Origin: Henriciella barbarensis
Lineage (GTDB): Bacteria > Pseudomonadota > Alphaproteobacteria > Caulobacterales > Hyphomonadaceae
Reading direction: 5' to 3'
NCBI RefSeq assembly: GCF_003576345.1
Contig: NZ_QWGB01000014.1
Coordinates: 124,001-188,000 of the forward strand
DNA: 64,000 nucleotides
Position 1 is the stretch's first letter; every line of letters begins with the position of its first letter. A program made the position numbers and the translations under genes. Positions 21,675 to 22,820 of this stretch are shown here, piece after piece. The notes beneath the pieces were generated by a model. That model saw nothing but the letters and a program-made list of their open reading frames with translations, did no database searches and had not been told where the DNA came from.

Positions 21675-22820
21675 ATGGCGACATTCCCGTTTGAGATAAA
21701 GGCCCGCGAGGGCAAAGCCCGCACCGGCGTTCTGAAAACGCCGCGCGGCGATATTCGCACACCTGCTTTCATGCCAGTCGGGACCGCAGCGACGGTGAAG
21801 GCGATGTATATGGACCAGGTTGAACAGGCCGGGGCCGACATCATCCTTGGCAATACCTACCACTTGATGCTGCGCCCGGGTGCCGAGCGGGTAGAACGCC
21901 TCGGCGGCCTGCACGCATTTTCGGGGTGGAAGGGGCCGATGCTGACAGATAGCGGTGGTTTTCAGGTGTGGTCTTTGTCACAGCTTCGCAAGATGGATGC
22001 GGACGGCGTAACCTTCAGGAGTCATATTGATGGCTCCGAACATCGTCTGACGCCAGCACGGAGTATCGAGATCCAGGCAGATCTGCTGGGCGCCGACATC
22101 TCCATGCAGCTCGACGAATGCACCGATTTTCCCTGCACCCATGAAGAGGCCGAGCGCTCGCTCGATCTATCGCTGGACTGGGGCGCGCGGAGCCTGGAGG
22201 CTTTCGGAGACCGTGACGCACAAACGCTGTTCGGCATCGTTCAAGGATCAAACTTTCCGGATCTTCGCGAAAAGTCGGCCAAAGGCGTCGTTTCGCAGGG
22301 CTTTGGCGGCATCGCACTTGGCGGTCTCGCCGTCGGCGAGGGCCATGATCAGATGTGCGCGACCATCGATATGACGGTACCACACCTTCCAGAGGCGAAG
22401 CCGCGTTATGTGATGGGGGTGGGAAAGCCAATCGACCTCGTCGAGAGCGTCGCGCGTGGCATCGACATGTTTGACTGCGTTCTGCCGACCCGCGCCGGAC
22501 GGCACGGTCAGGCATGGACATGGGAGGGGCCTATCAACCTCAAAAATGCGCGCTTTTCCGAGGATATGTCGCCTGTCGATGAAGCTGTTCCATCACCGGC
22601 AAGCCAAGATTATACAAGAGCTTATTTGCATCACCTGATAAAGTCCGGTGAGTATCTCGGCGCCATGATCCTCTCATGGCATAACACCGCCTTCTTCCAG
22701 GCGTTGATGGCGGAGATACGGCTCTCAATAGTCGAAAACAGGTTTGAGGCTTTACGCGCAGAGCTCAGTCATCGTTGGGCAGCGACGAAGTCGTCTGCAC
22801 GCGCGCCGAAGAGTGCCTGA
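21675..22820 (+). CDS. tgt: queuine tRNA-ribosyltransferase lacking zinc cysteines
   Basis: 381 residues. Tgt exchanges guanine-34 of Asn/Asp/His/Tyr tRNAs for preQ1. Catalytic parts are intact: the TDSGGFQVWSL acid/base Asp, MQLDECTDFP, GIVQGS, and the nucleophile in DCVLPTRAGRHG. The zinc site is not: the position of E. coli Cys302/304/307 (in a [10 protein letters not shown] block) here reads VDEAVPSPAS with gapless alignment, giving Val305, Ser307 and Ser310; only the histidine ligand (His336, in SWHN) is left. The flanking DYTRAYLHHL block is normal. An upstream in-frame start at 21645 is rejected. The gene overlaps the convergent lipoprotein gene by 56 nt. Confidence 0.95.
   Translation: MATFPFEIKAREGKARTGVLKTPRGDIRTPAFMPVGTAATVKAMYMDQVEQAGADIILGNTYHLMLRPGAERVERLGGLHAFSGWKGPMLTDSGGFQVWSLSQLRKMDADGVTFRSHIDGSEHRLTPARSIEIQADLLGADISMQLDECTDFPCTHEEAERSLDLSLDWGARSLEAFGDRDAQTLFGIVQGSNFPDLREKSAKGVVSQGFGGIALGGLAVGEGHDQMCATIDMTVPHLPEAKPRYVMGVGKPIDLVESVARGIDMFDCVLPTRAGRHGQAWTWEGPINLKNARFSEDMSPVDEAVPSPASQDYTRAYLHHLIKSGEYLGAMILSWHNTAFFQALMAEIRLSIVENRFEALRAELSHRWAATKSSARAPKSA

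Follow-up and report, generated by a model that had tools for sequence, protein, structure and literature searches.

Tgt, tRNA-guanine(34) transglycosylase, of the E. coli / Z. mobilis subtype is a zinc metalloprotein recognized by a CxCxxC motif and a histidine, and according to PMC9508795 TGT needs zinc to be active (citing its references 36 to 39, including Chong 1995). The tgt gene described here lies in a 64,000-nucleotide stretch (hereafter, the window) of the Henriciella barbarensis contig NZ_QWGB01000014.1 and encodes a protein without this motif, which raises the question of whether a Tgt can fold and act in the absence of its structural zinc. We consider it highly likely that the window Tgt is a working, preQ1-inserting enzyme that does so. 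It is a variant of a known enzyme from which zinc has very probably been lost and does not represent a new system. The surprise lies mainly in the contrast with the zinc requirement stated in PMC9508795; no report of a zinc-less Tgt was found in the open literature searched.

A complete tgt gene with one zinc ligand of four

The gene is a complete open reading frame, with an ATG start codon at 21675 and a stop codon at 22818-22820 (Table 1), and its product passes the bacterial Tgt profile TIGR00430 (457.5 bits; cut-off, 306.75). The zinc stretch aligns gap-free between Z. mobilis Tgt (1ozm) and the window Tgt (DSECHCAVCQKWSRAYIHHL...TEHN versus DEAVPSPASQDYTRAYLHHL...SWHN), and the motif CxCxxC reads V305-x-S307-x-x-S310 in the latter, leaving His336 as the only one of the four ligands. 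The first-pass annotation had described exactly this loss in an otherwise intact Tgt by comparison with the E. coli block DPECDCYTC; the E. coli copy in our data set (L133) does contain that block, with ...TIHN at the histidine ligand. The same annotation had raised the case of a second, complete tgt supplying the activity. A PF01702 profile search of the genome, which is rated 100% complete, returned the window gene as its one match and no second tgt copy.

Table 1. Features of the tgt locus, with positions in the window
Feature	Position	Strand	Remark
queA, next queuosine-pathway step	20577..21629	+	directly upstream of tgt
tgt, tRNA-guanine(34) transglycosylase	21675..22820	+	381 aa; sole PF01702 match of the genome
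Asp92, general acid/base	21948..21950	+	Z. mobilis Asp102
Asp267, nucleophile	22473..22475	+	Z. mobilis Asp280
His277	22503..22505	+	65/86 zinc-less and 0/70 zinc-type rows of Alphaproteobacteria; marker of the main zinc-less clade, missing from the separate losses
Former zinc loop DEAVPSPAS, residues 302-310	22578..22604	+	E. coli equivalent DPECDCYTC
Val305, place of first zinc cysteine	22587..22589	+	from alignment
Ser307, place of second zinc cysteine	22593..22595	+	Cys in 116/146 zinc-less loci
Ser310, place of third zinc cysteine	22602..22604	+	from alignment
DYTRAYLHHL, residues 312-321	22608..22637	+	Tyr313/Tyr317/His320 correspond to the Z. mobilis Trp326/Tyr330/His333 dimer hot spot
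His336, sole ligand position still kept	22680..22682	+	from alignment

Catalytic, pocket, and dimer residues are retained

Apart from the zinc site, the window Tgt resembles its characterized counterparts. It is 58-59% identical to Z. mobilis Tgt, has the same predicted fold, and shares with the Z. mobilis / E. coli type (TIGR00430) the catalytic Asp pair (D92 and D267), the GGLAVG pocket (G216-G221), and the dimer hot-spot residues; in contrast to that type, it has lost CxCxxC and three of the four ligands. GGLAVG is named as the preQ1-type pocket motif in PMC10723273, and together with the Asp pair it identifies the protein as a bacterial Tgt. The positions D92, Q190, G217, L218, M247, and D267 are invariant in all alphaproteobacterial rows compared (70 zinc-type, 86 zinc-less), D147 is invariant in those 156 rows except for one gap, and V220 is found in all 86 zinc-less rows. 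The catalytic and base-recognition residues checked are thus kept; for the catalytic core, the first-pass annotation had proposed this from the sequence.

An aromatic dimer hot spot is named in PMC5395182, and its counterparts here are F82, Y313, Y317, and H320. Three of these (F82, Y317, and H320) are kept in the window Tgt, and a tyrosine (Tyr313) stands at the Trp326 position; Y317 and H320, as well as K42 and E326, are identical in 156 of 156 alphaproteobacterial rows. The first-pass annotation had connected the zinc site with dimer assembly. Retention of the hot-spot positions speaks for an ordinary homodimer, which probably persists in the window Tgt.

Structure prediction, suggested as a check by the first-pass annotation, returned the Z. 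mobilis Tgt fold. AlphaFold2 models built from 77 mixed sequences (mean pLDDT, 93.1; TM, 0.94 to 1ozm) and from 76 zinc-less sequences only (mean pLDDT, 92.8; Z, 56.7; rmsd, 1.2 Å over 367 residues aligned with 1ozm) agree in predicting a TIM-barrel Tgt, with block pLDDT values of 96-98 for residues 301-320 in both, although the training of AlphaFold included solved structures, Z. mobilis Tgt among them, and the program may return that fold regardless.

Zinc-less Tgt is widespread in Alphaproteobacteria

Loci were scored for CxCxxC when the translated match covered the zinc region. Within the family of the window genome, 62 of the 65 genomes read are zinc-less (the own genome included; 33 lie outside its genus). 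A total of 105 family genomes were searched, of which 100 had some Tgt match, and 35 of these 100 fall outside the motif count. In three family genomes (G057, G084, and G061), the sole Tgt match is a distant zinc-type protein (L064-L066; ~40-42% identity), represented by six loci because two of the three entered the count more than once or in pieces. These proteins look, from their sequences, to have been acquired from outside in replacement of a zinc-less gene.

In the same order outside the family, three of three loci lack the motif. Among 91 loci of the same class outside the order, it was lost in 45 and kept in 46, in a chosen sample made up mostly of listed better-scoring matches and chosen genomes rather than an unbiased census. 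All 50 loci from the same phylum outside the class (30 best-scoring and 20 picked by family) keep the motif. The alignment of relatives proposed by the first-pass annotation therefore shows a loss that is far wider than one clade. Its suggestion of a zinc-free fold remains the best reading, but the idea that this fold is peculiar to the lineage of the window does not stand, since the loss is widespread in Alphaproteobacteria.

In the collection records among the matches listed, the motif was lost in 35 and kept in 58. By collection, 31 of 80 genome_contigs records among the matches listed and 3 of 8 plasmid records are zinc-less. A search of the viral contigs with the single window protein as the query gave no match; nine viral contigs with a Tgt were found, of which five reach the zinc region and one of the five lacks the motif. 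The count of 31 includes L216 (CAMDAC010000012.1), which is titled Candidatus Sulfopaludibacter and has a Tgt that is 81% identical to that of the window and that branches within the family of the window genome; judging from this placement, the contig is probably mislabelled or mis-binned.

Among the matches listed, the named records read were zinc-less throughout in Caulobacterales (7 of 7, including Caulobacter, Phenylobacterium, and Brevundimonas), Hyphomicrobiales (10 of 10, including Sinorhizobium meliloti, Shinella, Methylobacterium bullatum, Mesorhizobium, Rhizobium, Brucella rhizosphaerae, and Xanthobacter), and Pelagibacteraceae (9 of 9). One bacterium each of Hyphomonadaceae and Acetobacteraceae was also zinc-less among these matches, and of two Rickettsiales bins one lacked the motif. 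The named records read from Rhodobacterales (10 of 10) and Sphingomonadales (6 of 6) were zinc-type, again among the matches listed, as were those of Roseomonas, Rhodovarius, and Acidocella, two from Rhodospirillales, and records of E. coli, Magnetococcales, Gammaproteobacteria, Clostridia, and others. Three loci that at first resembled losses (L179, L192, and L186) contain a CxCxxC shifted by an insertion and were counted as zinc-type.

Two motif-less records outside Alphaproteobacteria were encountered among the records read from the matches listed. In the Tgt of L140 (IMGVR_UViG_3300032255_000145, a contig classed as viral in its collection), the four ligand positions read G, T, G, and H; on the tree it clusters with a zinc-type Planctomycetales Tgt, suggesting a further loss outside Alphaproteobacteria. 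The other, L284 (unclassified bacterium isolate bin.35), has N, C, S, and H, and its place in the tree is unsure, with a long branch.

The zinc site has been lost repeatedly

The usual change in zinc-less Tgt is the replacement of the first and third cysteines by small residues, mostly S, A, V, or T, with the turn between them kept (of the 86 zinc-less alphaproteobacterial rows, 68 have P308 and 73 have A309). The middle cysteine is retained in 116 of 146 zinc-less loci (by aligned position; the own genome is counted twice), and the window's own subclade adds only a last step, the loss of that cysteine. All four ligands are gone in L307-L309 (S, W, T/A, I), L212 (S, V, A, V), and L285 (V, K, L, N); no other Tgt match was found in the genomes of L309 and L212 (G418 and G174).

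A tree of 226 rows (133 zinc-type and 93 zinc-less), built by a quick method under LG+G4 with the motif columns removed, requires at least 13 changes of zinc state, of which 8 are forced by strongly supported branches; shuffled labels required 72 changes on average. A 92-row tree with a mixture model requires 7 changes, 4 of them forced. Most changes are read as losses because most rows outside Alphaproteobacteria are zinc-type. Zinc-type proteins also occur inside otherwise zinc-less parts of the tree (L099 and the group of L086, L097, and L227), and some of the changes may be regains or misplaced rows. As read from these trees, zinc-site loss is an old change that occurred repeatedly across large parts of Alphaproteobacteria.

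Ranking alignment positions by how strongly zinc-type and zinc-less rows of Alphaproteobacteria differ gave a list of the top 25, which contains the two cysteine positions. Testing of 18 positions for a compensating substitution by independent tree pairs gave none with a median p of <0.05, in a comparison limited to 8 pairs and thus of low power; the lowest value was that of Tyr313 (median, 0.25; range, 0.03-1). How the site is stabilized is therefore a guess, as none of the 18 positions clearly accompanies the separate losses. One natural pair was noted in the family with code f28, in which L127 (E, S, N, H) and the zinc-type L123 each come with one Tgt match.

Second Tgt-like proteins are present in some genomes. 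A PF01702 search for a second Tgt covered nine selected genomes, and most other zinc-less genomes were assessed by match count alone. Two genomes with one genus code, G138 and G364, have a zinc-less (L119) and a zinc-type (L214) main Tgt, respectively, and each carries a second, very distant Tgt-like protein (L331 and L332) that is 32-34% identical to the window Tgt and has no motif, the L332 match spanning a TGA; these genomes were rejected as a clean zinc-less/zinc-type pair for this reason. The genome G341 (contamination, 8%) holds the zinc-less L083 and, on another contig, the zinc-type L319.

Queuosine context and evidence for function

In addition to queA, the genome carries QueG, QueF-II, and QueC, all above the profile cut-offs, which places tgt in a queuosine pathway context. 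Evidence on function comes from relatives, with S. meliloti carrying the most weight. In the Tgt of its strain Ak57 (L128), the four ligand positions are occupied by S, C, T, and N; tgt mutants of S. meliloti strain 1021 lose queuosine-dependent phenotypes according to the published genetics. With the sequence from the one strain and the genetics from the other, S. meliloti appears to have a working Tgt that retains a single ligand of the four. Since tgt is genetically required for these phenotypes, loss of the site does not mean loss of function, and by analogy the window Tgt would exchange G34 for preQ1. The Hyphomicrobiales proteins share the absence of the motif with the window Tgt (10 of 10 named records read, among the matches listed) but differ in what is left of the site: they have lost the histidine ligand (N or A in 9 of 10) and kept the middle cysteine (10 of 10), the reverse of the window Tgt.

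A second case is the bTGT of Bartonella henselae. As described in PMC10723273, an E. coli queDF tgt mutant regains queuosine when it has this bTGT and preQ1; a word search of the main text of that article found neither zinc nor cysteine. This bTGT is probably zinc-less, to judge from its relatives. A Tgt with S, C, A, and N at the ligand positions (L310) was also found in a 1.5-Mb genome of the family with code f160.

A zinc-free enzyme and its alternatives

A sequencing or assembly error, or a chance misalignment of the motif, can practically be dismissed as the source of the missing cysteines. VPSPAS is common to the ~94-95% identical Tgt proteins of four separate genomes (L003-L006), which makes a sequencing error very unlikely, V, S, and S also occupy the cysteine positions of L007 (92% identical), the motif is absent from 28 of 28 same-genus loci covering the region (own genome excluded), and the alignment is free of gaps. 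It is also very improbable that tgt is decaying, with the zinc loss marking an inactive or weakly active enzyme on its way out. The gene can indeed be lost or replaced, as 5 of the 105 family genomes have no Tgt match (two of the five are only 80-82% complete) and three have the distant zinc-type Tgt. Against decay, tgt is under purifying selection, with whole-gene dN/dS values of 0.02-0.06 against 11 of 12 same-genus relatives (the twelfth was not computable), values that are rough because synonymous change is high throughout; the catalytic residues are kept, the zinc-less state extends to all Caulobacterales and Hyphomicrobiales records read, and genetics shows the tgt of S. meliloti to be functional.

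A metal might instead still be bound through other ligands, such as His336, the Cys307 of relatives, or nearby residues, so that the site is altered and not absent. The histidine kept in the window Tgt and in many zinc-less relatives, the middle cysteine of most zinc-less loci, and His277 as a mark of the main zinc-less clade would all suit such a site. We regard it as unlikely, given that L307-L309, L212, and L285 are left without any of the four ligands, that the window Tgt keeps one, and that His277 is missing from 23 zinc-less tree rows, including those of the separate losses. Weak metal binding via His336, and via Cys307 in most relatives, may nevertheless occur.

Across a large group of Alphaproteobacteria, the first and third zinc cysteines were replaced, mostly by S, A, V, or T, and the loop kept its proline-alanine turn. 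In the favored reading, a Tgt that has dispensed with zinc, side-chain packing in place of the metal would then hold the loop and the helix carrying Tyr317 and His320. Barrel and active site would be unchanged, as would probably the homodimer. Zinc-free (C-minus) ribosomal proteins offer a parallel, in that a structural zinc site is lost and the fold stays; they often form paralogue pairs under zinc control, in contrast to the one Tgt found in the window genome. More broadly, it seems rather likely that large parts of Alphaproteobacteria, including Caulobacterales, rhizobia, and Pelagibacteraceae, freed their Tgt from zinc by repeated independent losses, such that zinc is dispensable, loop packing replaces it, and base insertion no longer needs it in these bacteria. 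A natural, repeatedly evolved zinc-free Tgt would, if confirmed, show that the site is dispensable for the enzyme, and natural pairs of zinc-type and zinc-less proteins allow tests of the role of zinc in the loop and the dimer. Zinc should accordingly not be assumed for Tgt across large parts of Alphaproteobacteria.

Even so, other steps of queuosine synthesis, such as QueC, may still need zinc. The QueC of the window genome (L314) keeps its C...CGNCPAC block, which we take to bind zinc, and its ribosomal protein L31 (L318) has no CxxC. With this mixed picture, we do not claim a genome-wide zinc economy. A link between queuosine and metal homeostasis is discussed in PMC9508795.

Surroundings of the gene

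The best-matching named records for the window Tgt, among the matches listed, are mostly from Hyphomonadaceae and Caulobacterales. An open reading frame on the strand opposite tgt (22765-23484), without a Pfam match, overlaps the end of the gene. A search for direct repeats of at least 18 bases in 23580-60000 found none. Downstream of tgt, within 23599-24076, lie a tRNA-Lys(TTT) gene (23599-23674) and, after it on the opposite strand, a 109-aa fragment from the C terminus of a phage-type integrase (PF00589), which borders a run of polysaccharide-type open reading frames.
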